DNA of 22,298 nt from Sediminispirochaeta sp. GTDB taxonomy: Bacteria; Spirochaetota; Spirochaetia; DSM-16054; Sediminispirochaetaceae. A program made the translations under genes and the position numbers. The stretch is taken from assembly GCA_011046055.1 (NCBI GenBank), contig DSBN01000243.1:1-22298 (forward strand), in the 5' to 3' direction. Shown in pieces: positions 3,850 to 18,729 of the stretch (position 1 is its first letter; the number at the start of each line of letters is the position of its first letter). The notes beneath the pieces were generated by a model. The model was not told where the DNA came from. It did not search any database and worked only from the letters and a program-made list of their open reading frames with translations.

Positions 3850-4590
3850 ATGGAGTTTAACGAATCTCAACCATTTTACACAAATATCGGGCAAAAAAAA
3901 CCGCCTTTTTTCGAAGCTTTGCTGCTTTTTTTAGTTTTTTTCTTTCCCGGCTACCTCGGTCAGAACTCGGGCTTCCACATCTCCCAGCTCTTCAGTCCAG
4001 AATTTCACCTCGGCAGTCTTGTGTTCACCCTGCCCCAACTGCTTCTCATGCTCTATATTATCGGGCTCCGTTTGGGCCCCCTGGTTCACGGCTTGGGAAT
4101 TCGGCCTTTTGAATCGCGGCTGCTGCCGCGATCGCTGCTCACCCTCATCTCACTTTTGGCTATCACCTTCGGCTTGGGAGCTCTTCTCCAGTTGTTCAAT
4201 TATATCAGTGATGCGGAGCTTTACAACCCCACCCTGGCCCCGGGCAAGATGAGCATAAGCTACTCCGAGATAGAAGGAGTACCGTTCATAGCCGTACTCA
4301 TACTGGCCACCAGCCTCTGTATCGCCTACCTGGAGGAGCTCTTCTTTCGGGTCTACTTGATCGGCCAGTTCGGGGAGGATCGGAGGTCGACGATCATTGT
4401 CGTCCTGCTCTCCAGCGCGCTCTTTGCCGCTGGGCATCTCTACCAGGGCCTCGTCGGCGGGATGGGGACTTTTTTGATCGGTCTGTTTCTCTCACTATCT
4501 TACATACGTCGGCGCAGTTGGCACGAGATCTCCATCGCCCACGGACTCTACAATTTTATCATCATTATGTTGGCTCCCCTGACATACTGA
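3850..4590 (+). CDS. CPBP-family intramembrane glutamic protease (CAAX/Abi type)
   Basis: Polytopic membrane protein of 246 residues with all three motifs of the CPBP (Rce1-like) family in its C-terminal half: EE at 162-163 with R167 (EExxxR, catalytic glutamate), F192 and H196 (FxxxH), and H231 with N235 (HxxxN). Hydrophobic helices cover about residues 20-36, 52-75, 94-116, 144-160, 180-198, 205-219 and 233-243. Family members cleave substrates within or next to the membrane; bacterial ones act in bacteriocin immunity, peptide maturation or protein control, and the substrate here cannot be told from sequence. The ATG is preceded by only a weak ribosome-site match. It is divergent from the PilZ gene and followed by 78 bases before the next gene, so it is probably its own transcript. 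Confidence 0.85.
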   Translation: MEFNESQPFYTNIGQKKPPFFEALLLFLVFFFPGYLGQNSGFHISQLFSPEFHLGSLVFTLPQLLLMLYIIGLRLGPLVHGLGIRPFESRLLPRSLLTLISLLAITFGLGALLQLFNYISDAELYNPTLAPGKMSISYSEIEGVPFIAVLILATSLCIAYLEELFFRVYLIGQFGEDRRSTIIVVLLSSALFAAGHLYQGLVGGMGTFLIGLFLSLSYIRRRSWHEISIAHGLYNFIIIMLAPLTY

Positions 4591-4652
4591 AGGACGACGC
4601 AGTTCGGTACAACGAAAAATAGAAACCTTTCCCTTGCCTTCCAGGACAAACT

Positions 4653-4658
4653 ATATTA
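4653..4658 (+). promoter_or_regulatory. Candidate -10 box for the tlpA-dsbD-acyl-CoA ligase operon
   Basis: TATATT ends ten bases before the ATG at 4669. No Shine-Dalgarno sequence sits at normal distance; the nearest AGGA (4643-4646) is 22 bases away. If the box is used, the transcript begins within a few bases of the start codon. No convincing -35 element is seen. Confidence 0.3.
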
Positions 4659-4679
4659 GCTTTTTCATATGAAAAAGCT
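4658..4679. repeat. Perfect 22-bp palindrome centred on a start codon
   Basis: Eleven bases, AGCTTTTTCAT, are followed directly by their exact reverse complement. The ATG of the tlpA-like gene is the first triplet of the right arm. It could be a dimer-binding operator, or an RNA hairpin that hides the start codon; part of the right arm is simply the common Met-Lys-Lys-Leu signal-peptide beginning. Confidence 0.55.
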
Positions 4680-5253
4680 CAACAAATCTTTCACCGTTAC
4701 CGCCTTTTTGGTATCTCTTCTGCTGTTTTCGCTCTCCGGAGCTTCGGCGCAGCAAGATGTGGAACTCACCCCTCTGCAAGAGGAGCTTTACAACATGGGT
4801 TTCGGGGTTTTCACCGAGGAGGTAGAGGCTCCGGATTTCACCGTCCCCGACCTGGAGGGCTCCCAAGTGAGTCTATCGAATCAGAAGGGGAAGCTGGTAC
4901 TCCTGAACCTCTGGGCCACCTGGTGCCCCCCCTGCCGCGAGGAGATGCCCTCGATGCAGGAGCTCTACGATCGATTGGAGCCGCGGGGATTCACTATTCT
5001 GGCGATCTCGGCACCGCAGCCGCCGCGGGAGACGGAGGAGAAGATCAGAGGCTACATAGGGGAGAACGGTTTTAACTTCCCCGTTCTCATCGATTCTGAG
5101 TTCCAGGCCTTTCCCATCTACAACACCGGCAGTATTCCCACCAGCTACCTGATCGACCCGGAGGGAAACCTGGTGGCCCGTCTCACCGGCTCCATCGACT
5201 GGACGAGTCCGGGGATAGTGGACATACTGGAAAAAATGCTGCCCCGCTCCTAG
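4669..5253 (+). CDS. TlpA/ResA-like periplasmic thioredoxin
   Basis: Thiol-disulphide oxidoreductase of 194 residues, predicted to act in the periplasm. A signal peptide covers residues 1-28 (ending GASAQ). The mature part is a thioredoxin fold of the TlpA/AhpC-TSA type: entry strand with APDF at 54-57, active site WCPPC at 85-89, and a cis-proline at P157 (SIPTSYLID). The WCPPC motif is the form seen in reducing members such as TlpA, ResA and CcmG. The next gene, 21 bases downstream, encodes a DsbD-type reductase that is the natural electron donor. The target could be an apocytochrome or another oxidised envelope protein; no cytochrome genes are in the window. The start codon is fixed by the signal peptide but has no ribosome site at usual spacing and lies in a perfect palindrome. 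Confidence 0.9.
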   Translation: MKKLNKSFTVTAFLVSLLLFSLSGASAQQDVELTPLQEELYNMGFGVFTEEVEAPDFTVPDLEGSQVSLSNQKGKLVLLNLWATWCPPCREEMPSMQELYDRLEPRGFTILAISAPQPPRETEEKIRGYIGENGFNFPVLIDSEFQAFPIYNTGSIPTSYLIDPEGNLVARLTGSIDWTSPGIVDILEKMLPRS

Positions 5254-5274
5254 CAGCACGCACGGAGTACAGCC

Positions 5275-7155
5275 ATGAAAAACGGGCCGATCGCCACAGT
5301 CCCAATCTCCACGGTGAAGGGTCATCGCGGAGGTAGCCTCCAGCTGCTCATCGTCATGTTCCTCCTCATATCCCCTCCGATGTGGTCGCAGCTCCAGGAA
5401 CCTCAGCTGCCGCAGCGATCCGGAGGCGCCGATTCCGATTCGGTCACGGTAGAGGGATTCGATACGGGCGGGGCGATGAATCAAGAGCCGCCTAAAGCCC
5501 TGATCGAGCTGGCGGATGACTCGGTCCCCCTCGATCATTCCGGCCAGGCTGGATTCGCGGTAAGGTACAGCTTCCCCGAAGGTTTTTACCAGAGTCTACG
5601 GAAGGACTTTTTCTACCTGGCCCTTCCCGAGGGATCGCCCTTCGTCATCCGAGAACTGGACTACCCCTCCGGAACCGTAGAGGATAATGAAACAAAATAT
5701 TACGGCGAAGCCACCCTCGAGGCGCGTATCGCCCTATCCGAGTCGGTTCGGCCGGGAGAGTACCGCCTCCCCGTGACGGCGGCCTACCAGCTCTGCGATG
5801 AGGCGGGTACCTGCTACTTTCCCCAGGAGGAGAGTTTGGAGATCACCGTACGGGTACCCGAGCAGGTCTCACCGGCCGGCGCCGAGACGTGGTCCGAAGC
5901 GGGGTCCGAGAGCAGCGGGGAATCCTGGACCCTCTTGCTGCGGTTTTTACTCTTCGCCCTGATCGGAGGCGTGCTGCTGAACGTGATGCCCTGCGTCCTG
6001 CCGGTACTCTCGATACGGGCCCTCAACCTGGTCAAGCAGAGCGGGAACAGCCGCGGGGAGATTTTTCGGGGCTCGCTCTTTTATACTCTGGGCGTACTTG
6101 CTTCCCTCCTCATTTTGGCTCTGGTGGTGATCGCCCTCAAACTCTCCGGTGAGATGGTGGGGTGGGGGTTCCAGTTTCAGAACCCTCTTTTTACGGTCTT
6201 TCTCATAGTGGTGATCTTCGCCTTCTCCCTCTCTCTGTTCGACGTATACGTGTTCCAAGCGCCGAGTATGAACCGGAGTCTGCAACGGGCCAGCAACAAA
6301 GGATATCTGGGCTCTTTTTTCAATGGCATCATCGCCGTGCTCCTGGCCACCCCCTGTACCGCCCCGCTTCTTGGCAGCGCCCTGGGCTTCGCCTTCTCCC
6401 AGAGTCCTCCGGTCATCCTCGGGATATTCGGCATGGTCGGGCTCGGCTTCGCCCTCCCCTTCTTGCTGATAGGACTACGGCCGGGTCTGATCAAAAAAAT
6501 TCCCAAACCCGGCGCGTGGATGAACACCTTCAAAGAGCTGATGGGATTCCTGCTCCTGGCCACGGTGATCTACCTCATGTGGATTCTCCAATACCAGATC
6601 AGTGAAGCCGAGATGCTGAGCTTGCTGATCTTTCTACTCGTACTGGCTTTCGTTCTCTGGATCTACGGCAAATACGCGAAACCTACCGCCAGCAGCGGGA
6701 GAAAGTGGATTCTTTTGCTTCTCTCTATTATACTGCTCGTGTCGGCCGGTGGTCGGCTGCTCCGTTTCGACGGAGATACGGAAACAAGTAAAACTTCAAG
6801 CATGTATGAGGGATGGCGGGAGTTCTCTCCCGAGCTGCTGGCCGACTACCGCCAGGCCGAGGAACCGGTTCTGGTGATCTTCTCCGCCAAATGGTGTACC
6901 GTCTGCAAGCTCAACGAGGAGTCGGTACTGAAAACGGAGCGGGCGGACCGGCTTTTCGACCAGCACGGCGTGCAGGTACTCTACGGAGACTACACCAACG
7001 AAGACCAGGTGATCGGTGAATGGATTCGGTCATACGGACGGGCGGGAGTGCCGGTCTACGCCTATTATCCCGCCGGAGCTTCCTCCCACCGGCTGCTGCC
7101 GGAGGTGCTTAGCTTCCGGGTATTAGAGGACTCTCTAGGCTCCACCTCATTCTGA
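5275..7155 (+). CDS. dsbD: DsbD-type transmembrane thiol-disulphide reductase
   Basis: Moves electrons from cytoplasmic thioredoxin across the inner membrane to periplasmic thiol proteins. All three classical modules are present in 626 residues. After a signal segment (hydrophobic about 21-38) comes the DsbD-alpha immunoglobulin-like domain with the redox pair C174/C180. The membrane domain (about 219-495) carries the conserved cysteines C240 (NVMPC) and C361 (ATPC). The C-terminal thioredoxin domain has WCTVC at 540-544 and a cis-proline at P593. All six redox cysteines are therefore intact and the length matches full DsbD. A GGAG at 5264-5267 sits seven bases before the ATG. The gene follows the TlpA-like thioredoxin, its probable partner, and is followed 21 bases later by the acyl-CoA ligase. 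Confidence 0.93.
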   Translation: MKNGPIATVPISTVKGHRGGSLQLLIVMFLLISPPMWSQLQEPQLPQRSGGADSDSVTVEGFDTGGAMNQEPPKALIELADDSVPLDHSGQAGFAVRYSFPEGFYQSLRKDFFYLALPEGSPFVIRELDYPSGTVEDNETKYYGEATLEARIALSESVRPGEYRLPVTAAYQLCDEAGTCYFPQEESLEITVRVPEQVSPAGAETWSEAGSESSGESWTLLLRFLLFALIGGVLLNVMPCVLPVLSIRALNLVKQSGNSRGEIFRGSLFYTLGVLASLLILALVVIALKLSGEMVGWGFQFQNPLFTVFLIVVIFAFSLSLFDVYVFQAPSMNRSLQRASNKGYLGSFFNGIIAVLLATPCTAPLLGSALGFAFSQSPPVILGIFGMVGLGFALPFLLIGLRPGLIKKIPKPGAWMNTFKELMGFLLLATVIYLMWILQYQISEAEMLSLLIFLLVLAFVLWIYGKYAKPTASSGRKWILLLLSIILLVSAGGRLLRFDGDTETSKTSSMYEGWREFSPELLADYRQAEEPVLVIFSAKWCTVCKLNEESVLKTERADRLFDQHGVQVLYGDYTNEDQVIGEWIRSYGRAGVPVYAYYPAGASSHRLLPEVLSFRVLEDSLGSTSF

Positions 7156-7164
7156 CGCTTGACT

Positions 7165-7172
7165 GGAGGAGG
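7165..7172 (+). promoter_or_regulatory. Strong ribosome-binding site deciding the acyl-CoA ligase start
   Basis: GGAGGAGG lies four bases before the ATG at 7177. It selects this ATG over an upstream in-frame TTG at 7159 that would add six residues encoded by the ribosome site itself. Confidence 0.8.
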
Positions 7173-7176
7173 AATA

Positions 7177-9081
7177 ATGGCAAAACTCGACACCATACCC
7201 AAGAGGGTGCGTTCCACCGCAAAGAAGTACCCCGACCTACCGGCGCTGATGAGCAAAAACGGCGACGGTGACTTCGTCCCCGTGAGCTACCAGGAGCTCT
7301 ATCGGAAGCTAAAAGCCGTTGGATTGGGTCTGCATGGGATCGGTATTCGGCGGGGCGATCACGTGGGGATCATCTCCGACAACCGACAGGAGTGGATCAT
7401 CGCCGACCTGGCTCTGCTGGGCATGGGGGCCGTGGACGTACCCCGGGGCTCGGACTCAATGGCCGAGGAGATCTCATACATTCTGGGTCACGCCGAATGC
7501 TCCACGGTCATCGCTGAGAACGTTGCCCAAGCCGAGAAGATTCTCTCTCAGAAGGAGCAGCTGCCGAAGTTGGAGAAGCTTATTCTATTCGATCCGAGCG
7601 GACGGATAGAATCTCCCCAGCTCAAGGAGGTGGAGCTGCTCCATTTCTCCGATATCGTCGATCAAGGCGAGCGGCAGCTGGCGGAGAAGCCGGATTTTTT
7701 TGACATCGAGGTGGATGCCGGGCAGATCGACGACCTGGCGACTCTGATCTACACCTCCGGGACCACCGGAGAGCCGAAGGGAGTCATGCTCTCCCATCGC
7801 AGCTTTATTTTCCAGATCGAACGAATCTACGACTACATCAGTATCAAGGCGGGACATCGATTTCTCAGCGTCCTGCCCATCTGGCACTCCTTTGAACGGG
7901 CGGTGGAGTACATCATTCTCAACATCGGTGCGACCATCGCGTACTCCAAACCGATTGGTTCGGTCATGCTGCCGGACATGCGGAAGGTCCGTCCCCACTG
8001 GCTGACCTCGGTCCCCCGTATTTGGGAAGGTATCCGTAGCGCCATGATCAGAAATATGAAAAAAGAGGGCGGAATCAAGCTGGCGATGTTCCGCTTTTTT
8101 GTTGCCGTCGGGGAGATGCACGCCACCTTCATCAATATGTTCACCGGCCGTCTACCCGATTTTTCCAAAAGGTACCGCCTCTTGGAGAAAGCCGTCGCCC
8201 TGCTGCCGATCCTGCTGCTGAGTCCCTTCAAGCTTCTGGGTTGGGCCTTGGTGTTTCGAAAAGTGCAGGAGAAGCTGGGGGGCAACTTTATCGCTGGAAT
8301 TTCGGGCGGAGGAGCCCTGCCGCAGTACGTGGACCGTTTCTTCTTCGGTGTCGGCATCAAGCTGCTGGAGGGATACGGTCTGACCGAGACGGGCCCCATC
8401 CTTTCGGTACGGAAGGAGAGCCACCCGGTCTTCGGGACCATCGGCTCCCTGCTGCCCGATATCGAGTACCGGGTCATCGACTCGGAGGGGGCTATAGTGC
8501 CTCCTGGTCACAAGGGTACTCTCTACGTCAAGAGTCCGCAGATCATGAAGGGCTACTACAAACGACCGGAGGCCACCTCGGAGGTGCTCCAAGACGGCTG
8601 GCTGAACACCGGAGATGTGGCGATCTTCACCCACGGCGGGGAGCTCAAAATCTTGGGACGGACCAAGGAGACCATCGTCCTGCTGGGCGGCGAGAACATC
8701 GAACCGATCCCCATCGAAGACCGTCTGAACGCCTCCGAGGCGATCGGGATGTCAATGGTGGTGGGACAGGATCAGAAGTACCTGGCCGCCCTGATCGTCC
8801 CGGAGATGGCCAAGCTGGAAGAGTACGCCATCGCCAACAGCATCCCCTACGTGCAGAGCGAAGAACTGCTGTACAACCCGGAGATACAGGAGTATATGCA
8901 CGACGAGATCCAGCAGCAGGTCAACCCCAAAAATGGTTTTCGGCACTACGAAAGGATCTTCCGTTTTGCCATGCTTCCGGAGCCCTTTGAGATCGGCGAA
9001 GAGCTGACCCATACGCTGAAGATACGCCGGGATGTGGTGTATAATAAGTACCATCACCTGATCGAAAAGCTCTTTGAATGA
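7177..9081 (+). CDS. Long-chain acyl-CoA synthetase (AMP-forming)
   Basis: Activates fatty acids in two steps (acyl-AMP, then acyl-CoA) on the cytoplasmic side. The 634-residue protein has the ANL-superfamily signatures in order: YTSGTTGEPKG at 192-202 (P-loop), GYGLTETGP at 399-407, TGD with D480 and GRTKE with R495 (ribose binding and hinge), and a late lysine in THTLKIRR near the C-terminus. A hydrophobic segment at about residues 333-355, between the two halves, and the overall length are like the FadD15/eukaryotic ACSL branch rather than E. coli FadD. Substrate chain length cannot be read from sequence. It is the last gene of the tlpA-dsbD operon, 21 bases after dsbD; the functional link to redox genes is unclear. 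A FadL-like barrel about 8 kb away may supply its substrate. Confidence 0.9.
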   Translation: MAKLDTIPKRVRSTAKKYPDLPALMSKNGDGDFVPVSYQELYRKLKAVGLGLHGIGIRRGDHVGIISDNRQEWIIADLALLGMGAVDVPRGSDSMAEEISYILGHAECSTVIAENVAQAEKILSQKEQLPKLEKLILFDPSGRIESPQLKEVELLHFSDIVDQGERQLAEKPDFFDIEVDAGQIDDLATLIYTSGTTGEPKGVMLSHRSFIFQIERIYDYISIKAGHRFLSVLPIWHSFERAVEYIILNIGATIAYSKPIGSVMLPDMRKVRPHWLTSVPRIWEGIRSAMIRNMKKEGGIKLAMFRFFVAVGEMHATFINMFTGRLPDFSKRYRLLEKAVALLPILLLSPFKLLGWALVFRKVQEKLGGNFIAGISGGGALPQYVDRFFFGVGIKLLEGYGLTETGPILSVRKESHPVFGTIGSLLPDIEYRVIDSEGAIVPPGHKGTLYVKSPQIMKGYYKRPEATSEVLQDGWLNTGDVAIFTHGGELKILGRTKETIVLLGGENIEPIPIEDRLNASEAIGMSMVVGQDQKYLAALIVPEMAKLEEYAIANSIPYVQSEELLYNPEIQEYMHDEIQQQVNPKNGFRHYERIFRFAMLPEPFEIGEELTHTLKIRRDVVYNKYHHLIEKLFE

Positions 9082-9121: not shown

Positions 9122-9478
9122 CTAGCGCAGCAAGAGGAGGACGAAACCTCCGGCCAGACTGGCCAGCAGGATGATCACCAGCAGGGGAGCCCATAGGGAG
9201 CCGCGTCGCTTGCCGCTCCCCTGCTCCTCCCGATCGGTGTTGCCGTGGATATCCTGGGTGGTCAGTACCGGCATGCTCCCCTGGGAGCTATTCCGCGGTG
9301 CAGCCGAGCGATAGCCGCAGCGGGGACAGCCGCTTTTGAACTCCGCGGCTACTCCGCTGTAGCCGCAGCGGGGGCACATGACCCCGTAGAAACGCATGCC
9401 GCAGTAGGGACAGTAGTCCAAATCCACCGGAACCTCGCGTCCGCAGGTCTCACAGAAAAATTTAGGTTTCTCCCTCAT
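9122..9478 (-). CDS. Small double zinc-ribbon protein with C-terminal membrane anchor
   Basis: A 118-residue protein with two CxxC-CxxC zinc ribbons: C9, C12, C23, C26, and C35, C38, C51, C54. A polar linker (about 55-92) ends in a basic RR, followed by a single hydrophobic segment (about 96-117) at the extreme C-terminus. This suggests a tail-anchored protein with the ribbons in the cytoplasm. It has no signal peptide. Its ATG overlaps the TGA stop of the receptor phosphatase gene by four bases (ATGA), so translation is coupled and stoichiometry with that receptor may matter. Function is unknown; zinc ribbons of this kind bind proteins or nucleic acid. It could be an adaptor for the phosphatase domain, but this rests on position alone. 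Confidence 0.82.
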   Translation of the reverse strand: MREKPKFFCETCGREVPVDLDYCPYCGMRFYGVMCPRCGYSGVAAEFKSGCPRCGYRSAAPRNSSQGSMPVLTTQDIHGNTDREEQGSGKRRGSLWAPLLVIILLASLAGGFVLLLLR

Positions 9479-12400
9479 TCACTTCCCCGGTCCGTCTTTT
9501 TTTTGACCCCCAGCAAGGTCAGGTCGTCGTACTGTTCGTCCTCCTTGATGTGGCTGTAGCGAAGGTACTCCTCCTGATCCTCCGACACTTTCAGGGGATG
9601 GTGAAAATAGAGATCGTACTGCTTGAAGTGCTCTCTGAGGAAGGCGTCCACCTTTTTGTCCATCACCACCACGTCGTTTTCGTCGGCCTTGGGATCGGGG
9701 TACATGCGAAAAATCTTCTCCACGGCCATCAGCGCGATGACCACCTCTTCTATCGTCCCCTGGCAGGATGAAAAATCGAACTCCAGCTCTTCGTCTTTGA
9801 TCGGGTTGTGGTACTTGAACAGACGGTACGTACCCCCCGCGACCAGGGTGTTAACTATATCGTATATGCGAGGTATTCCCAGCTCTTCGTTGTCCGTCCC
9901 CAGAGCATGGGTATCGTGCAGTTCGCCCTCGGCAAGTCCCTTTTCCTGGCAGGTGGTGATCTCAAAATTTTCATCTCGGAAGTGGCGCTGCGCCTCCTCC
10001 AGACCGTCGGTAAACAGCAGCAGCATATCGCCGGCGCGAAGCACATGAGGAATACGCTTGAAGCCGGACTGCATCTCCACCAGATCGTTGGGGAAAACCC
10101 CCGCCGCCGGCGCTTCGGGCAGGGTCTTGGCCTCCATTTTTCTTTTCTCCCCATTAAAAATATGTACCAAGTTGTCCCCGGCGTTGCACATCACGGTTTT
10201 GCCGTCCTTGCTGTCAAAAAGCAGCACCGTCAGAGCGGCGAAACGCCCAGAGAACCCCCTTTCCTGAACCAGGCGGTTGATCGAGTAGACCAGCTCCTGA
10301 ATATTTGGATCTTCCTCTACTCTTTTCACACCCTTGCGGGCGGCCAACTCGTCCTTTCGTTTCTGCTCCTCCACCCAGGCGTTGAAAAAGCTGTGAAAAA
10401 TCGTGGCCACTTCGACCATTATCAGCGAGGCGGCTACGCCCTTGCCGGCGACGTCGCACTTGATGATCCCGTATTTCCCCGGAGTCAGCTCCATATAGTC
10501 GAAGTAATCTCCGGAGACCCCCTTTGCCCCTTCGTAATAGCCGAAAAACTCCGCCCCCTCCAACGACAGCGCGCCGGTGGTCAGTTTTCTCCCCCGGGAG
10601 TTCTGCTCTAAGGGGATGAACATCTTCTGTATTTCCTTTCCGACGATCAGATCCTTGTTGGCCGCCGCGGCGCTCACCAACCCCTTGGTCATTTGGTTGA
10701 TCGTGTCAGCCAGAATCGATATCTCGTCTCGCGTCTTGACGTTGATTTCGTGGTCCTTGAGCTTCTCCTTGTCTTCGGTGTCGCGAATAGTTTCTATTCC
10801 TCGGACGAGCCGCTTTATCGGGATAATGATAATAGTCGCCAAAATCAAGGCTCCCACTATCCCCAGACCAATGGCGACCAGGGCTATGACCACGGTCCGC
10901 CTTATCAGCGTATCTCGTGAGCTGATTATTTCTCGTATTATACGATCGGTGGAGATACCAAGCCGTACCATTCCGTGGTAGTAAACACCTTGGCGCGAGG
11001 AATCCTGGTATACAATGGGCCGGTAAAAAACGTACTCCCGAGGCCCAGTCAGAATTTGGCCGGTTTTGAACTCGGGCTCGCTGTATACCTGATCGCTGAG
11101 CGTCGCCAGCTCGTCTTCAATCAGGCTGCTCAGTCGGCTGATCTCGTCTTGGAGCTCGGTGAGCAGCTGCGCCGTGTCCTGGTCCTGGCGACTGGCCAAG
11201 CTTCCCGCGGCTTGTCGCGCCTCCTGCTGCAGCTCCTCCAGATTGGTGACCATCTCCCCCACCCTCTCTTCGGCTCGACCGTTGATCTTCTCGACCAGGG
11301 AGGGGATCCGAGGGCTTATCGCGTCTTCCACTTTGATGGTTCCTCGCTCGTAGGAGAAGTCGCCGGTCTGAATCTGTTCGATCCCCTCCTGTTGATCCTC
11401 CTGCCGCACCTTCTCCTCGATGAGCGGGTCGTTGGTGGCCCACAGATAATCAAAGAAATCGGGATCGATGCCCCCGGTGGAGCTGGACCCCGGTCCGGTA
11501 ATAGTGATGAACCGGGCGTCCTCGGCGGCGCTCATCTGCCGGGGCAGACGACCGAGCTCGATGCTGTTCTCCTCGGGGAGGAACTTCTCAGCGCCGGAGG
11601 TGATACTCTCGATGAGTACCCGGGTACTCTCTTGCAGACCTTCGGTGAGGTTCTTCCGCTGAGTCTCTATCAGATAGTTGCCCAGGGGTACGGCCACCAT
11701 GAGCACGATTATCAGCACCAAAAAGGTAGTCAGCAGCGCGAATTTGACACGCAGTCCGATTCCACGTTTTCTCATAGCTTCAAGTTTCTCCTCTCTAACT
11801 TCGTACGGCAACTGCCGGCTTTCGATGAGAGCCCTCACGTCTCGGCGCAGCTTGAAAGTCTCCCGTACGATCTGGCTGATCTTCCATACGGCGAACATCA
11901 TCATTGCGGTGAGCAAAATCATCAGAAGCAAGAGTTGCAGGTCCCCGCCTAAGAGTATTATCTTCTCTTCTCCCCGTAGGGGCTGTTCCGGGCCCGAAAT
12001 CAGGGTAAAATCGCCGAATTTCACCACTCCAGTGCTCTCGAACTGGAGGGTATAGGCGGTGAAGTAGGTTCCCCGACGTGGATGAACCAGCCCGATTCTA
12101 TACTCTCCTTGATCGATCTGATCTATAAAAGGTCCGGTGATGAGACGGTCGTTGTCAACGGTGTAGAGGTCGCTCCCTTGGGAGAAGGAATAGTCGTAGG
12201 GAGGCTCTCCGTCACGGTCGAGAATTATCTCCTGTATCTCACCACCCTCGCTGAATCCTCGGCCGATGATTCTCAACTGGTAGCGGTTCAGCTGATCCTG
12301 CTCCACCTGCACCCTGGTGACATAGGTCACCGGAATATACTTGTTGAGCTGAAAATAGAGGGTCTTCGTCGGGCCCACGTTCCCCACTCCGTCAACCGGC

Positions 12401-14223
12401 GCTACCGTGAAAGCCCAGGTGCCGTTGTCGATATTGCTGAATGAGTAGTTCGGTTCCCGGCTGAGGATTCGATCGGGCGGATCCAAAATATCGAAATCCT
12501 CGAAGTCACCCTCGTAGCTCTCAGACGCCAGGTACTGGAGCCGGTAGGTGTAGCCCTCCAGATCCTCCGCCTCCGGTGCTTCCCATCGCAGGGTGGTGCT
12601 GTTGGAGCTGAGGTATCCCTCCTCGTCTCTCTCCGGTGCTTCAAACTCCACCGCTTCCGGCGGAGTGGTGTCCCGGTAAAACCTCAGGCTCGATGTATCG
12701 GACCAGTTCCCAGCGTAGTCCCTGGCGATTACGTGGAAGTACCACCAGCCGTCCCGCTTGACCTCCACCTCCGCTCGGCGCGCGTCCCTCCGCAGGAGCC
12801 TCATATTCTCTGCCGGTCGTCCCTCGGGATCGCGGTCCAGTAGGTAGTTGAACCCGGCGATTCCCGAAGAATCCTCGGGAACACTCCAGGTAATCGTATA
12901 TCGATCACGGGCGTTTCGATCGTTCCTCCGGAAATCGACGGCATTCAACACCGGCGGGTCCACCGTCTGATCCGGCTCCAGAAGCACCAGCCGATACCTT
13001 CCGTTGCTGCTATTCTCCCACACGGCGTTAAGTTTCCCCGCCGCCGGAACCAACTGTCCGTTGCGGTTCTCTCCCGTCATTACGCTGATATCTTCGTCCT
13101 GCCAGCTCAGCCCCTGACGATAGGCCACAAAAACCCGGTTTACCCCCTTCCTGTTGTCGTACCAGGTCAGATAGGTTTTTCCGTCGAGCTGGGCTATACG
13201 GGGGCTTCGGCACACATAGTTACCGCTGCTTACCCTCTCGGCCGAATCACGGAAAAGGCCGTCGGTCCCCAGGGAACCGTAATATATCTGCGGGGAGGTG
13301 ACGTTGGCGAATTTTCTCTCCCAAGTCAGCAGAAGTCCATCATCCCCGGTGCTGAGAAAGGGGCGCTGATTGTCGAAGTTGTTGGGATCGCCGCCTTCGC
13401 CGCCCAAGGAGTCGGAAAAATCGGTGATTCTCCGTGCCGCGCCCCAACTTCTCCCCCCATCATCACTGGAGACCAGAAACAGCTGATAGTAGCGGCTGTC
13501 TCGGGGAGAACCCTGAAACACTACATAATCCCGTCCCTGATAAGTACTATGGCTGGGGAGATAAACCCAGGCAATGTCGCTTTGGCTCAGTAAGGGACGC
13601 AGGGGAGTCCAGGATCTGCCATTTCGACTGACCGCGTAGTTCACCCCCAAGGAGCCAGTGAGAATCGCCTCCTGCTCGGACTCGACTCCCAGTGTATGGG
13701 TGGCGAAAACGATCATCCCTCCATCGGCGGTGTGGGAGAGGCGCGGAGCCAGAGAGATGCCCTCAGTCCCTTCGGCTCCCAGGCTGCCGATCCTCCTCGC
13801 CTCGTCGTCTCCCGTTTCGTAGGAGAAGATCTCGATCCTTTGACCCGAGGCAGCGGCGGCGATAAATATCTCCCCCTCATCGGAGATACTTATCGAGGCG
13901 TAGGGGACTTCGGAACCGGAAAATTGGTAGGGGCCGATGATGCCTCGATGGATACTCCACTCCTGATCACCCCGGCTCCACATCAGGGAGACACTGGTCC
14001 GTGTCGCCTCCCCCCCCTGGTACTCGTACTCGTGCCATAGGACCAGGCTCAACTCATCCTTGTACGCGGTCTGGGGAAATCGTGCTCCATCGGGAATTAC
14101 TATCCGCGGATCCTCCCAGTAGAGCTCTTGAGCGGAGAGTCCGAATACCGACAAGAGAAAAAACTGGATTGTGACAAAGAGCAGTGTCCAAAACTTTCGG
14201 CTATGTTCCCTTTTCACCCGCAC
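9475..14223 (-). CDS. Giant receptor SpoIIE/PP2C-type serine/threonine phosphatase
   Basis: Predicted membrane receptor of 1582 residues. Order: signal peptide (1-31); beta-propeller/sialidase-like region (about 32-420) with a perfect Asp box SxDxGxxW at 253-260; two FN3-like domains (about 420-520, 520-630); an IPT/TIG-like domain (about 630-735); TM1 (763-782); short cytoplasmic loop; TM2 (825-848); a second extracytoplasmic domain with a long coiled coil (about 975-1045); TM3 (1110-1136); HAMP (about 1136-1185); SpoIIE phosphatase. Metal-binding aspartates are all present: D1239 (GVSGDYFD), D1257 (DVAGKG), D1406 (TDG) and DD at 1566-1567, so it should be active. Family members dephosphorylate anti-anti-sigma (STAS) proteins; none is encoded here. 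An unusual insertion splits the catalytic domain. GTG start with AAAGGAG upstream. Second gene of the TPR operon, coupled to the zinc-ribbon gene. Confidence 0.9.
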   Translation of the reverse strand: MRVKREHSRKFWTLLFVTIQFFLLSVFGLSAQELYWEDPRIVIPDGARFPQTAYKDELSLVLWHEYEYQGGEATRTSVSLMWSRGDQEWSIHRGIIGPYQFSGSEVPYASISISDEGEIFIAAAASGQRIEIFSYETGDDEARRIGSLGAEGTEGISLAPRLSHTADGGMIVFATHTLGVESEQEAILTGSLGVNYAVSRNGRSWTPLRPLLSQSDIAWVYLPSHSTYQGRDYVVFQGSPRDSRYYQLFLVSSDDGGRSWGAARRITDFSDSLGGEGGDPNNFDNQRPFLSTGDDGLLLTWERKFANVTSPQIYYGSLGTDGLFRDSAERVSSGNYVCRSPRIAQLDGKTYLTWYDNRKGVNRVFVAYRQGLSWQDEDISVMTGENRNGQLVPAAGKLNAVWENSSNGRYRLVLLEPDQTVDPPVLNAVDFRRNDRNARDRYTITWSVPEDSSGIAGFNYLLDRDPEGRPAENMRLLRRDARRAEVEVKRDGWWYFHVIARDYAGNWSDTSSLRFYRDTTPPEAVEFEAPERDEEGYLSSNSTTLRWEAPEAEDLEGYTYRLQYLASESYEGDFEDFDILDPPDRILSREPNYSFSNIDNGTWAFTVAPVDGVGNVGPTKTLYFQLNKYIPVTYVTRVQVEQDQLNRYQLRIIGRGFSEGGEIQEIILDRDGEPPYDYSFSQGSDLYTVDNDRLITGPFIDQIDQGEYRIGLVHPRRGTYFTAYTLQFESTGVVKFGDFTLISGPEQPLRGEEKIILLGGDLQLLLLMILLTAMMMFAVWKISQIVRETFKLRRDVRALIESRQLPYEVREEKLEAMRKRGIGLRVKFALLTTFLVLIIVLMVAVPLGNYLIETQRKNLTEGLQESTRVLIESITSGAEKFLPEENSIELGRLPRQMSAAEDARFITITGPGSSSTGGIDPDFFDYLWATNDPLIEEKVRQEDQQEGIEQIQTGDFSYERGTIKVEDAISPRIPSLVEKINGRAEERVGEMVTNLEELQQEARQAAGSLASRQDQDTAQLLTELQDEISRLSSLIEDELATLSDQVYSEPEFKTGQILTGPREYVFYRPIVYQDSSRQGVYYHGMVRLGISTDRIIREIISSRDTLIRRTVVIALVAIGLGIVGALILATIIIIPIKRLVRGIETIRDTEDKEKLKDHEINVKTRDEISILADTINQMTKGLVSAAAANKDLIVGKEIQKMFIPLEQNSRGRKLTTGALSLEGAEFFGYYEGAKGVSGDYFDYMELTPGKYGIIKCDVAGKGVAASLIMVEVATIFHSFFNAWVEEQKRKDELAARKGVKRVEEDPNIQELVYSINRLVQERGFSGRFAALTVLLFDSKDGKTVMCNAGDNLVHIFNGEKRKMEAKTLPEAPAAGVFPNDLVEMQSGFKRIPHVLRAGDMLLLFTDGLEEAQRHFRDENFEITTCQEKGLAEGELHDTHALGTDNEELGIPRIYDIVNTLVAGGTYRLFKYHNPIKDEELEFDFSSCQGTIEEVVIALMAVEKIFRMYPDPKADENDVVVMDKKVDAFLREHFKQYDLYFHHPLKVSEDQEEYLRYSHIKEDEQYDDLTLLGVKKKTDRGSE

Positions 14224-14233
14224 TATAACCCCG

Positions 14234-14240
14234 CTCCTTT
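14234..14240 (-). promoter_or_regulatory. Ribosome-binding site of the receptor phosphatase gene
   Basis: AAAGGAG on the minus strand, ten bases before the GTG at 14223 and touching the TAA stop of the TPR gene. It supports the GTG over another in-frame GTG two codons later, and suggests translational coupling. Confidence 0.65.
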
Positions 14241-17200
14241 TACAACCGGCTCTCGATTCGACGTCGCAGATCGAGCAGTTTCGGGTTGCTCCGGTTCTCC
14301 GGATTTTGCCACAACTGTTCGACTATCGCCTGGGCTTCGTAATACCTACCGTCGATGTACATATCCTGCGCTCGCCGCAGCTGCTGCTGATCCGAGCTGG
14401 AGAGAACCACCGAGATCTGGCCGCCCTGCCCAGCCTGCAGGCGGTCCTTCAATACCATAGCTTCCTGATAATTGGGATCAAGGTTGATTGCCTCGTTGAG
14501 ATAGGTGAGAGCTACCGGGAACTGAGCCCGTACATCTCGGTTGACAATCGATTCAGCCTGGGCGTAGAGGCTGCGAGCCCGGGCTAACTTCTCCGGATCC
14601 GGGGGAGGTTGTCTAATTCCGGTGGCGATCTCCGCCTTGTAGATAGCATCCTGCAAGCCCGGAAAATCATCGTCGATCTGACGCAAGACCTGTAACTCTC
14701 GATACGCCTCTTCCGGTTGGCTCTCCAGCTTGTTGGCGGCCGTTCGAAACCTCTCCCGGTAGATCGATTCGAATTGGTCCGGCTGGGTGTACTGTAATAT
14801 CCGCAAATAGAGGGCTCCCGCCTCTTGGTTGTTGGGAAAGGGCTCTTTTATATACTCGGTTTTTTTCTCAGCGGCGGCAAAACGTTCCAATGCCCGCTGC
14901 CTATCACCCTGCTCGAAAAGTTCCACTCCCCGCCTGAAGTCCTCCTTGGCCAGGTTGAGAATCTGCATCATCTCCGGGTACAGGGGATCATCCTCTTCGA
15001 TGGTGATGCCGCTGGTAGCCTCAAGCGCCCGTTCAACTCGGTTGAGCCAGAAGACCACCTCCTGGTTGTCCTCCGTGTGAGTCAACAGCCAGCGAGACTG
15101 GGCCCGAGAGAGAACCTGCTCGGCCTCGATGAAACGTTCCTGGAGAAAAAGCTCCCTACCCCGGTTGATCATCTCCCGAACTTCCCGCACCACCAGCTGG
15201 TTCTGTTGAAAAATGATCTCTTCGCCGATCTCCGGGATCTCTTCATCGATGATCCGCCGGACTTCCGGGTCCTCACGGTACAACAAGGAAGCAGAATAAG
15301 CCTCACCGGCCTGCTCGAGCCTCTCCCGGGCCGCTTCGAAACTCTCCGCGGCAAGCTCGTTCTCCGCCTGGCCGAGACGAATATCCCCCTCGGCCAGGGC
15401 GATATCCGCCTGTCGGTTCAGTTCCACCGCTTCCGCGTTGATCTCAGCAATGCTGGTGTTCAACGCTTCGAAGCGCTCTAGAAAGATCCGTCCCTCTTCC
15501 ACACGCTCGGCTATCCGCTCTTGGCTGCGGATATAAGGTTTTTCACCAGTCAAGTCCTCTAAAACGCCGGAGACGGTCTCCCGCGCCGCAGCGAGGCCGT
15601 TTTCAGCCTCTCGTATGAGATCGATAGCGCCGTTGGGGTCGCGAATCAAGACGGGCTCCCCTCCCTCTTCCAGAGGCTCCTGAACTCCCTCGACCAGGCG
15701 GGACGCTCGGTCTATCGATTCGGATGAGCTCTCCAGCGTCGCTCTCACCGATCGATAACGGATATCGGCGATTTTATCTACCATCCGCCCCTCGAAATCC
15801 CTTCCCTCAGCCAGGGATACTCGAAGCTGACGGAGCAGCTCATTCACAATTCCCTGGGCCCGCTCGACCTCTACTCCGCTCTGGGCGTAGCCGTCGTACT
15901 GCTCCCGATACTCTTCAACCAGCTGCACCTGGTTTTGAAGGATGCTTAGATTTCTCTCGAGCTCCAGACGATTTTCCTGAATCGATTCTACCTTCCGTAG
16001 GTTCCCGTAGATCTCCTCCAAGCCCTCCATTTCTCTGAGCTCTTGGGCCAGGTCGATATAGACTTCGGCGGCGAACCCGTGCGCTTGATAATAGAGAGAG
16101 CTCGCTTGACTCTGCCGAGCCCGAGGCCCAACTTTGTGTTCCATATCGAGTTCTTCCCTTCTATTGTGCAGCGCGATCTGGCGCTCAAAGAGGCTCCCGC
16201 CCTGCTCAGCCAGCGCGATCACCGTCTCAAAGCCCGCTTCAGGCTCCACGGCGGGGACTCGCCCGCTTTCCGGCACATCCTCGACCACCGTTTCCTCTTG
16301 CTCCGGCGCCGTTTCAAGCGGACGGAAACGCTGAGTGAAGCGCAGCACCGAGCTTTGGTACTCCTGCTCTATCCATGCCAATGCATCAGATCCGAGCCGC
16401 TCCATCGCCGCGACCAGGGGTCGTTCCACCGCGCCGGCGATTCCATTGGGTCTTTCGCTGGCCGGTCTTCCTCTGGTGAGCACCCGGAGGGTCGAGAGGA
16501 AGGGGATGTCGGTAGTATCGGCGTCCATGATCGAGAGTCGAATCGAGTCGATAGAGTTGGCCTGTTCCACGACTTGTCTCCAGAGGTCTAAAAGTTCGGA
16601 AAAGAGTTGGGAAAAATCGTCCCACCGCCGCGGGGCGTCGCCCGCACTGGCCGAATAGTCGCGAAGACTCGAATCCAAGCGTGGATAGAGAGAGCGGAAA
16701 CTCTCGCTGAGCCCCTGGATAGTCTCGATACGGCTGTCGATCTGCCGAAGCAACTGTGGGCTGTTGAAGTCTTCTTCCTCTTCGAAAAGCTCGCGATGAA
16801 GATCAAATCCGCTGAGGTACAGCTCTATCGCCTCGATATACCTCTGATCCGCCAGGAGAGTATCGGCTTGATTCATGATCTGCTGAAAACGCTGGTCGTT
16901 GACGGTAAAAATGATCGACCTACGTGCCTGGGCGAAGGCTTCGATAGAGGCGCTGTTGGGTTCGGCGTCCAATTCCTCGAGCCGCCTGATTATTTCGTAA
17001 GCCTCCTGCTCGTCGAGCTCTTCCCCCTCCCGTATGTCCAGGGTTTCCAAAAGCTCACGGTAGGTTCGGTTGTAGAGTTCTCTCGCCTCTCGTATTTTGG
17101 CCAGGAGTTTCTCCGCCTCGTCAAAATATCGGGGAGAGTCGCGCATCACCTCGGTCAGCAGCTCAATAGCCTGGTTGTAACGACGCTCCTCGATAAGGAG

Positions 17201-17314
17201 CTCCGCCTCCTTCAGCTCATCATCCTTGTTCCCCATTGCATAGAGCTCTCCCATAGTACATAGGTAGAGGGAGGATAGAATCAGACTGAAAAAAAAGAGG
17301 CCTCGCTTTGTCAC
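14240..17314 (-). CDS. Large periplasmic TPR/coiled-coil scaffold protein
   Basis: A 1024-residue secreted protein made almost wholly of acidic helical repeats. The signal peptide covers about residues 1-26 (LYA at its end). TPR-like units are recognisable at about 29-64 (AELLIEERRYNQAIELLTE), 146-175, 645-680, 715-745, 790-815, 930-960 and 977-1010, separated by long coiled-coil stretches (about 420-690). A Pro/Glu-rich linker lies near 333-362. The only cysteine is C19, inside the signal region; the preceding residues (SLYL) make a poor lipobox, so lipidation is possible but not favoured. No enzyme motif is seen. The GTG start has GGTGAG upstream at a short spacing. It is the first gene of the operon with the receptor phosphatase, 16 bases ahead of it, and may present ligands or envelope partners to that receptor. 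Confidence 0.85.
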   Translation of the reverse strand: MTKRGLFFFSLILSSLYLCTMGELYAMGNKDDELKEAELLIEERRYNQAIELLTEVMRDSPRYFDEAEKLLAKIREARELYNRTYRELLETLDIREGEELDEQEAYEIIRRLEELDAEPNSASIEAFAQARRSIIFTVNDQRFQQIMNQADTLLADQRYIEAIELYLSGFDLHRELFEEEEDFNSPQLLRQIDSRIETIQGLSESFRSLYPRLDSSLRDYSASAGDAPRRWDDFSQLFSELLDLWRQVVEQANSIDSIRLSIMDADTTDIPFLSTLRVLTRGRPASERPNGIAGAVERPLVAAMERLGSDALAWIEQEYQSSVLRFTQRFRPLETAPEQEETVVEDVPESGRVPAVEPEAGFETVIALAEQGGSLFERQIALHNRREELDMEHKVGPRARQSQASSLYYQAHGFAAEVYIDLAQELREMEGLEEIYGNLRKVESIQENRLELERNLSILQNQVQLVEEYREQYDGYAQSGVEVERAQGIVNELLRQLRVSLAEGRDFEGRMVDKIADIRYRSVRATLESSSESIDRASRLVEGVQEPLEEGGEPVLIRDPNGAIDLIREAENGLAAARETVSGVLEDLTGEKPYIRSQERIAERVEEGRIFLERFEALNTSIAEINAEAVELNRQADIALAEGDIRLGQAENELAAESFEAARERLEQAGEAYSASLLYREDPEVRRIIDEEIPEIGEEIIFQQNQLVVREVREMINRGRELFLQERFIEAEQVLSRAQSRWLLTHTEDNQEVVFWLNRVERALEATSGITIEEDDPLYPEMMQILNLAKEDFRRGVELFEQGDRQRALERFAAAEKKTEYIKEPFPNNQEAGALYLRILQYTQPDQFESIYRERFRTAANKLESQPEEAYRELQVLRQIDDDFPGLQDAIYKAEIATGIRQPPPDPEKLARARSLYAQAESIVNRDVRAQFPVALTYLNEAINLDPNYQEAMVLKDRLQAGQGGQISVVLSSSDQQQLRRAQDMYIDGRYYEAQAIVEQLWQNPENRSNPKLLDLRRRIESRL

Positions 17315-17478: not shown

Positions 17479-18729
17479 ATGAAGAAATCTGGCTGGAAAA
17501 CGGTACTGCTTATCACCCTCCTCGCTTTCGCAAGTCTCGGGCTCGCCGCCGACGACCTGGCCGATTTCTACTACGGTTACAGCGACTTCTCGAACCACTC
17601 TTTCTTTCGCGACCCCAACACGGGACGGACACTGTTTCCAACCCTGCAGATCCCCATGGGCGGAGAGTACGAAGGGATGGGCACCGCCTACACGGCGATC
17701 GCCGAGGGCGCCGGCTTCCTCGAATCCAACCCCGCCGGCAGCAGCCTCCTTCACAACACGGAGCTGGCCTTTCTGCACAACAACTGGATAGCCGACTCGA
17801 GCCTGGAAAGCCTGGTGTACAGTATCCGTTTTGGGGACCTCGGAATCGGGGCTGGAGCCAAACACCTCTACCTCCCCTTCACCGCCTACAACCAGTGGGG
17901 AGATCTGGACTCCAGAGCCTACGTGTCGGAGACCGTGGCCACCGCGAATCTCTCTTACAACTTCCTCTCCTCGTACTACTTTCACGGAATCGCCGTGGGG
18001 GCGAACCTGAAACTGGCCTATCGAAGCATCCCCAGTGTGATCTACCCCGGCCAGAGTCTCTTTTCACCGATGGTCGACCTGGGAGCTCTGACCAAGTTCA
18101 ACTTCCTCAAATTCTACCCGGCTCGAGAGAGGAACCTCTCGGTGGGAGTGGTTGCTCGCAATCTCGGACCACCCAACGACGAAGAGCCTCTCCCATCGCT
18201 GCTCTCCGCCGGTCTGGCCTACGCCCCCTGGCGTCCGGTTTTGCTCTCCTTTGATTTCAACTATCCTATAGCCTTTGGACTGGCTCCGGATGAGTGGGAG
18301 AAGTGGTACATCTCCTCGGGCTTCAAGGTTCAGTTTACCAATTTTCTGGCACTGCACACCGGTTTCACCCACCGGGGAGCCAATCCCCGCTTCAGCATCG
18401 GCAGCAATATTGATTTCGACTACATCGATCTCATCCTCAACTATACTTTGGACCTCACCACCCAAGTCACTTCCATCGACCGTTTCAGCCTCGAGGCCAG
18501 TATGGAGCTGGGCGACCGCGGACGAGCCGAGCTGCAGCAACAGGTCGAAGAGTACTACATCGAAGGTCTGAAGGCTTACGCCTCGGGAAGCCTGCAACGA
18601 GCCATCGAGTATTGGGAAGCAACTCTGGAGCTGGATCCGGATTTTCAGCCCGCTGAGGAGAATATGAGCGTCGCCCGACGCTCATTGGAGCTGCAAAGGG
18701 AGATGGAAGCGGTCACCAAAGTCGAGTAA
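17479..18729 (+). CDS. FadL/UPF0164-like outer-membrane beta-barrel with C-terminal TPR
   Basis: Predicted outer-membrane protein of 416 residues. A signal peptide covers 1-23. The mature N-terminus shows the FadL-family NPAG motif (LESNPAGSSLL, near residues 82-91), followed by alternating amphipathic beta strands to about residue 343, rich in aromatic residues as barrels are. This matches the spirochaetal UPF0164 group, proposed to be FadL-type transporters of long-chain fatty acids or other hydrophobic compounds. Residues about 356-405 form a TPR-like helix pair (YYIEGLKAYASGSLQRAIEYW), an unusual tail that should lie in the periplasm. The ATG at 17479 with TAAGGG four bases upstream is preferred over an in-frame GTG at 17461, which would lie upstream of the ribosome site and spoil the signal peptide. 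Divergent from the TPR operon. Substrate not determined. Confidence 0.82.
   Translation: MKKSGWKTVLLITLLAFASLGLAADDLADFYYGYSDFSNHSFFRDPNTGRTLFPTLQIPMGGEYEGMGTAYTAIAEGAGFLESNPAGSSLLHNTELAFLHNNWIADSSLESLVYSIRFGDLGIGAGAKHLYLPFTAYNQWGDLDSRAYVSETVATANLSYNFLSSYYFHGIAVGANLKLAYRSIPSVIYPGQSLFSPMVDLGALTKFNFLKFYPARERNLSVGVVARNLGPPNDEEPLPSLLSAGLAYAPWRPVLLSFDFNYPIAFGLAPDEWEKWYISSGFKVQFTNFLALHTGFTHRGANPRFSIGSNIDFDYIDLILNYTLDLTTQVTSIDRFSLEASMELGDRGRAELQQQVEEYYIEGLKAYASGSLQRAIEYWEATLELDPDFQPAEENMSVARRSLELQREMEAVTKVE

Follow-up and report, generated by a model that had tools for sequence, protein, structure and literature searches.

What would a predicted SpoIIE-type phosphatase at the inner membrane of a spirochaete have to gain from two stacked periplasmic regions, and what would they be there to read? 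The question is raised by P0001, the product of a gene on contig DSBN01000243.1 of Sediminispirochaeta sp. (assembly GCA_011046055.1), the whole 22,298 nucleotides of which are termed the window here (contig 2; the assembly is of 2.29 Mb in 400 contigs and is 68% complete). The gene is real, as was observed earlier from the letters alone (the sequence-only reading); it lies on the minus strand at 14223-9475, starts with a GTG at 14223 that has a Shine-Dalgarno-like AAAGGAG shortly 5′ of it, and encodes 1582 residues. The answer that we consider rather probable is that P0001 is the inner-membrane receptor, and at the same time the output, of an envelope signalling module whose other members are a UPF0164 barrel and a periplasmic TPR-like protein. 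Its basis is the anatomy of the chain, a conserved gene neighbourhood, joint inheritance and the separability of a core, each of them shown here. The three genes are as follows.

9475..14223, minus strand: receptor phosphatase P0001 (single open frame, and homologues)
14240..17314, minus strand: TPR-like protein of 1024 residues (signal peptide by eye), ending 16 bp before the phosphatase gene begins
17479..18729, plus strand: UPF0164 FadL/PorV-like barrel, predicted to be in the outer membrane (PF03687), divergent from the TPR-like gene

How faithfully do these genes travel together? A first sample comprised 296 genomes of the phylum, among them 54 of the class with a full-length phosphatase, and all 54 have a match to the TPR-like protein; the two sets of class genomes are exactly the same. 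The TPR-like gene is co-directional and directly upstream in 53 of them, with gaps of 3-793 bases, and in G081, where the phosphatase begins 137 bases from the contig start, it is on another contig. UPF0164 is present in 51 of the 54, each time divergent from and beside the TPR-like gene (gaps of 151-2560 bases, some of them to a partial match). Where named loci leave room, 74 of 77 have the TPR-like gene upstream, and 50 of 52 have UPF0164 on its far side.

In six genomes (G206, G212, G259, G262, G276 and G288) the phosphatase, in frames of 748-914 residues, has no ectodomain, and in these there is neither a TPR-like match nor a UPF0164 match. The ectodomain has not moved to another gene there, being absent in 6/6 apart from a 50-residue match (E 0.003) in G259. 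The genus code of two of the six, G276 and G288, is also that of G056, a genome with every part present, and descent of the short forms from one inherited event is rejected by the at least five changes on a tree of the HAMP-phosphatase region, a tree made by a quick method with 15 of its 59 inner branches open. Given these six natural variants, the second sensor, HAMP and phosphatase are a separable core. The second sample took in 346 class genomes, overlapped the first and was scored for the core (191 genomes), the ectodomain (194) and the TPR-like gene (191). Of the 194 genomes with the ectodomain all but G399, G493 and G495 have the TPR-like gene, which makes 191, versus 0 of the 152 without the ectodomain (Fisher's p 1e-96, a value that ignores kinship). 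The core occurs without the ectodomain in seven genomes, namely the same six and G405 (a 73% complete genome), and the ectodomain without the core in ten.

The sequence-only reading had two sensory regions stacked in one receptor phosphatase, and this is supported, with both regions predicted to be periplasmic. From the N-terminus the order is signal peptide, beta-propeller, FN3/Ig-like domains, a first transmembrane segment (TM1), a short loop, TM2, a Cache-like domain, TM3, HAMP and the SpoIIE/PPM phosphatase, all features being on the minus strand.

14131..14223, minus strand: signal peptide, residues about 1-31 (hydropathy only, segment 11-29)
12964..14127, minus strand: beta-propeller, residues about 33-420 (AlphaFold2, Foldseek matches to propellers, Asp-box)
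11989..12951, minus strand: FN3/Ig-like domains, residues about 425-745 (AlphaFold2 model, FN3 in P0035, titin profile match)
11878..11934, minus strand: TM1, residues 764-782 (hydropathy)
11683..11739, minus strand: TM2, residues 829-847 (hydropathy)
10900..11676, minus strand: second periplasmic sensor, Cache-like, residues 850-1108 (secondary structure of the model; sCache_3_2 in homologues)
10837..10893, minus strand: TM3, residues 1111-1129 (hydropathy)
10678..10821, minus strand: HAMP, residues 1135-1182 (Pfam 24.6 bits, cut-off 25)
9493..10617, minus strand: SpoIIE/PPM phosphatase, residues about 1203-1577 (Pfam, model, aspartates)
9544..9966, minus strand: folded insert before the last DD motif, residues about 1420-1560 (end of the Pfam match, spacing, conserved columns, model)

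A weaker hydropathy peak at 1258-1280 is within the phosphatase domain. The TM1-TM2 loop, 783-828, has 13 K/R versus 7 D/E and, being basic, is probably cytoplasmic. Nor is the chain an artefact: a P0001-type chain is one open frame in single-contig genomes such as G006, G049, G194 and G130, so an assembly error or rare fusion was rejected, and with both halves present in 184 of the 346 class genomes the two-part chain is no rare fusion. Is the arrangement restricted to spirochaetes, as had been asked of a homologue search? A protein search with P0001 gave 347 matches, and among the best 120 listed, 117 align over 95% or more of its length, with identities of 40-63% apart from the window's own record; an ectodomain search gave 522, of which the best 120 were likewise listed. 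All the organism names seen among the listed matches of both searches are spirochaetal, but most rows are nameless, so that the restriction holds for the names and goes no further. In a genome collection 361 stretches encode relatives, the best 80 all titled as spirochaetes, and in the 296-genome sample 240 have some match, many of them to the phosphatase half alone. Ten phosphatase open reading frames from other classes were inspected; in eight TM1 and TM2 are close together and TM3 comes later, and in two, L136 and L137, TM1 and TM2 are far apart. The filter used gave no such frame for L123, L124, L125, L128 and L135. The three-segment layout is no oddity of P0001. At 14 of 15 loci of other classes there is a co-directional open reading frame upstream of the phosphatase, and of five such upstream proteins that were scanned those of L123, L126 and L137 have clear TPR repeats, that of L129 a weak one and that of L132 none.

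The propeller that had been predicted for residues 32-420 was borne out by structure prediction, with AlphaFold2 giving residues 30-760 a mean predicted local distance difference test score (pLDDT) of 87.6 and Foldseek matching PDB propellers. ROS1 came first in the Foldseek search of the ectodomain, with plexin and titin also among the large multi-domain chains, and after these came the propeller matches BT3686, rhamnose-glucuronate lyase, PL24 lyases and the sialidase NanA; the ectodomain also matched the heparin sensor BT4663 in its periplasmic part. By sequence the signals are fainter. The propeller has only one canonical Asp-box, at 253-260, and BNR_2 is under its Pfam cut-off in 6/6 scanned homologues. 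Sialidases have a six-bladed propeller with several Asp-boxes, and their catalytic residues are an Arg triad, a Tyr/Glu and an Asp. A single-sequence search of solved structures gave antibody chains and weak phosphatase matches (SpoIIE chains, E 0.05-0.5), and a profile search of them gave titin FN3 repeats. For an ectodomain of FN3 and IPT domains, as initially described, the first half stood, FN3 being above the Pfam cut-off in one of the six homologues (P0035) with beta domains in the model; IPT had no Pfam match, and the model has a beta domain at that place. With a signal peptide and TM1 in a two-membrane cell, the ectodomain should be periplasmic.

Where in the periplasm would its signal come from? 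The sequence-only reading, partly supported as a whole, had an adhesin-like ectodomain that could read a polymer or surface ligand, and this part of it is not supported. Since the ectodomain is periplasmic and its most faithful partners are the TPR-like protein and the predicted barrel, another envelope protein is the likelier input. The alternative that survives best, unlikely as we hold it to be, is that the propeller on its own senses a soluble periplasmic glycan or peptide and that the TPR-like and barrel genes are merely its neighbours in an ancient operon. The best propeller matches do act on glycans (BT3686, rhamnose-glucuronate lyase, PL24, NanA), BT4663 is matched as well, and further neighbours are conserved in the lineage too; but the TPR-like gene is absent from 6/6 short forms and from 152/152 class genomes without the ectodomain, and the short forms retain the phosphatase gene while the TPR-like gene goes.

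What of the rest of the chain? AlphaFold2 gave residues 750-1582 a mean pLDDT of 86.5. The second sensor that had been proposed is there, but it is not the bare coiled coil of that proposal: in the model a helical hairpin, at about residues 970-1043, is inserted into a domain of mixed alpha/beta structure. Pfam Cache has no match in the P0001 chain itself; with sCache_3_2, one of six homologues, P0081, reaches 33.0 bits, above the cut-off of 28.4, P0086 and P0093 are below it and three have no listed match. The proposed HAMP domain is above the Pfam cut-off in 4/6 scanned homologues, and P0001 itself falls just short of it. By sequence and model the C-terminal domain is a predicted SpoIIE/PPM phosphatase. 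Pfam SpoIIE matches residues 1248-1418 with 75.9 bits (cut-off 25), and the fold matches of residues 750-1582 are to the PPM domains of P. aeruginosa RssB, Rv1364c RsbU, SpoIIE and SiaA. That every metal-ligand aspartate was retained proved correct, D1239, D1257, D1406 and D1566 all being present and invariant in 26/26 aligned sequences. We take the aspartates of P0001 to pair with D628, D746 and D795 of SpoIIE, by motif and not by superposition. Those SpoIIE residues are named in PMC5468089. The Pfam match ends at profile position 139 of 192, where the insert begins, and the spacing from the SGD to the DD motif is 329 residues in P0001 versus 214 in L129, from another class.

How then might the module work? 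The barrel in the outer membrane and the periplasmic TPR-like protein would carry the signal, the latter perhaps contacting the periplasmic end of the former, and the propeller/FN3 ectodomain would read the TPR-like protein. A TM1-TM2 hairpin may couple the ectodomain to the Cache-like second sensor, which may itself bind a small ligand, and TM3, HAMP and a helical linker would determine in turn how the switch helices are set in a PPM phosphatase dimer. Control of PPM phosphatases by their linkers, and dimerisation driven by them, are described in PMC12143880 and PMC5468089. The phosphatase would dephosphorylate a phosphoprotein of the cytoplasm, for which a STAS anti-anti-sigma factor is the likeliest candidate; STAS proteins are in 12/12 genomes searched, and the HATPase_c_2 matches are uninformative, many being in frames of more than 400 residues that are probably histidine kinases. 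Physical contact, the direction of the signal with its route through the TM1-TM2 hairpin, the dimer, the substrate and the ligand are what we infer from the genomic and structural observations.

There is a good deal to be set on the other side of the scale. On the sign test, where one vector serves for both traits since ectodomain and TPR-like gene coincide in 57 rows, the four independent loss pairs on well-supported branches give p 0.125 and cannot reach significance, which takes at least 6 pairs. The TPR-like neighbour has TPR_1 at 18.8 bits, under the cut-off of 27.8. Contact between the ectodomain, the TPR-like protein and the barrel is a proposal drawn from genomic data, and the STAS substrate is a guess, with no match to STAS or anti-sigma families among 13 scanned proteins of the window. 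In G218, G236 and G290, one clade on the HAMP-phosphatase tree, the TPR-like gene and ectodomain are kept with no UPF0164 match, and at L062 the TPR-like gene is present with no barrel beside it. At three of 77 loci, L071, L078 and L109, a full-length phosphatase has no TPR-like gene next to it. An acceleration of the ectodomain after partner loss was looked for in L078 and there was none, its propeller/phosphatase ratio ranking 66 of 78 from the lowest. Finally, the order of the genes equals the order of their losses, so that one-sided deletions are a real alternative.

Some of these cases are informative in their own right. At L109 the TPR-like gene and UPF0164 are on another contig of the genome. 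No UPF0164 was found in the genome of L078, and between its GH57 gene and the phosphatase, at L078:9552-9935, is a short TPR-like frame with the first 99 and last 28 residues adjoining, which could be an assembly collapse. The GH57-looking gene abuts the TPR-like gene in G218, G236 and G290. The counterpart of the TPR-like protein in L070 has TPR_12 at 29.0 bits versus a cut-off of 30.1. Among class genomes of the first sample none has UPF0164 without the TPR-like gene, and in the second none has the TPR-like gene without the ectodomain (0/191): the losses are nested, from the outside in, barrel, then TPR-like gene, then ectodomain.

Could such joint loss be a by-product of deletions from one flank of the gene cluster, with no functional coupling? 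The order GH57 - UPF0164 - TPR-like - phosphatase does match that of the losses, and the GH57-type gene adjoins the surviving part of the cluster in L078 and, among short-form loci, in L116 and L117. Against this, the ectodomain was lost independently in four or more lineages that retained the remainder, and the TPR-like gene without the ectodomain is in 0/191 of the second sample. Further, L114 and L115, both short forms, still carry one more hydrophobic segment at the N-terminus that is signal-peptide-like (seen by eye in L117), from which it follows that the cut lies inside the phosphatase gene. We find flank deletion a shade less credible as an explanation than the lone glycan or peptide sensor, and well behind the signalling module.

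How does P0001 stand beside systems already known? With SpoIIE, RsbU and RsbP of the Bacillus partner switches it shares the PPM fold, the metal aspartates and a helix that leads into the phosphatase, and it is unlike them in its three transmembrane segments, two periplasmic regions and conserved insert before the last DD motif. A fold match, 6k4e, is the PP2C domain of SiaA of Pseudomonas aeruginosa. SiaA is a membrane PP2C receptor with the same order of sensor, HAMP and PP2C but, unlike P0001, with one sensor and not known to have a propeller ectodomain or TPR or barrel partners. Hybrid sensors of the BT4663 type are receptors that, like P0001, have a propeller on the periplasmic side, and they differ in having a histidine kinase output and no known hairpin and second sensor. 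Signalling that starts at the outer membrane is familiar from TonB-receptor/anti-sigma systems, and the module, if real, would be a phosphatase counterpart to outer-membrane-initiated signalling elsewhere.

The syphilis spirochaete comes in at this point. G056, a genome of 1.14 Mb with five UPF0164 matches and with positions no more than about 2 kb from those given in PMC8407342, which we place, from these features, presumably in the T. pallidum species group, has the barrel, the TPR-like gene and the full phosphatase in that order. An apparent relative of P0001 is TPANIC_0854 of Treponema pallidum, in PMC10600179 and PMC5956850 annotated as a SpoIIE family phosphatase, modelled on sialidases and listed as a sialidase-like virulence candidate, and its SS14 counterpart is a SpoIIE phosphatase in PMC11668736. 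TPASS_0854 was given another function in PMC4403809, the correction to which says that the table was misaligned. In that organism TP0855 is a predicted outer-membrane protein in PMC5015957 and 0856/0858/0859 are UPF0164 proteins in PMC10600179. For 0854 that literature suggests a sialidase or adhesin exposed at the surface; such a role is very improbable for the ectodomain of P0001, for while sialidases are among the propeller matches and PMC5956850 lists TPANIC_0854 with sialidases at 98.9-99.5 and 17.0-25.8 (taken as confidence and coverage), the signal peptide and TM1 place the ectodomain in the periplasm and there is a single canonical Asp-box.

In PMC8407342 the five T. pallidum FadL proteins are assigned to barrels of 14 strands, and for three of the five TPR helices at the C-terminus are placed in the periplasm; FadL-like barrels have an NPA hatch motif. 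The UPF0164 neighbour of the window scores 151.2 bits with PF03687 (cut-off 21.4), has an NPA motif at residue 84 and has at its C-terminus a weak TPR_2 of 20.0 bits, under the cut-off. A type IX secretion link of the barrel was considered and rejected, NCBIfam PorV giving 66.1 bits with a cut-off of 90. UPF0164/FadL proteins have been studied as syphilis vaccine candidates, and no paper joining this phosphatase to FadL proteins was found in a search that most subscription journals lay outside. If the module is as proposed, these proteins would be tied to a signalling output, a protein kept even in the 1.1 Mb genome of G056 would have partners and a role, and the printed label of ‘sialidase-like virulence candidate’ would become a testable receptor hypothesis. 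More doubtful, and offered tentatively, is a fuller picture of an envelope-spanning complex in which the FadL-like barrel takes up or senses a hydrophobic compound, the TPR-like protein is the relay and the dual-sensor phosphatase the end point, extending from uncultured spirochaetes to the apparent syphilis group with losses from the outside in.

The surroundings deserve some mention. Beyond the other end of the phosphatase gene is one further feature.

9122..9478, minus strand: double-zinc-ribbon protein with a C-terminal hydrophobic segment, its ATG overlapping the phosphatase stop

A downstream partner-switch gene was rejected, the frame that overlaps the phosphatase stop being this double zinc ribbon and no STAS protein. 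Of 73 named loci, 18 have the gene no more than 250 bp past the phosphatase, and of 39 with room, 26 have it somewhere downstream. Convergent with the phosphatase, at window positions 7159-9081 on the plus strand, is a gene resembling those of long-chain acyl-CoA synthetases, with an AMP-binding match; 8 of 80 named loci retain it downstream, and many of the loci end sooner. With it and a FadL-like barrel nearby there are hints of fatty acids as the signal of the module. Genes for a CAAX-type protease, a TlpA-like and a DsbD-like protein (3850-7155, plus strand) remain part of this block at several of the named loci. On the barrel side a GH57 alpha-glucan branching-type gene flanks the module in L070, L114, L116, L117, L078 and L158-L160; its Pfam assignment rests on L117 and L078, and tblastn places the gene in 27 of 91 loci searched. 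Promoter-like sites in the window are not above shuffles (4 versus 3.5) and terminator-like sites are (16 versus 8.4), with none of the latter between the phosphatase, TPR-like and UPF0164 genes. A DNA polymerase III alpha-like frame, 19653-22298 on the minus strand, runs past the edge of the window.

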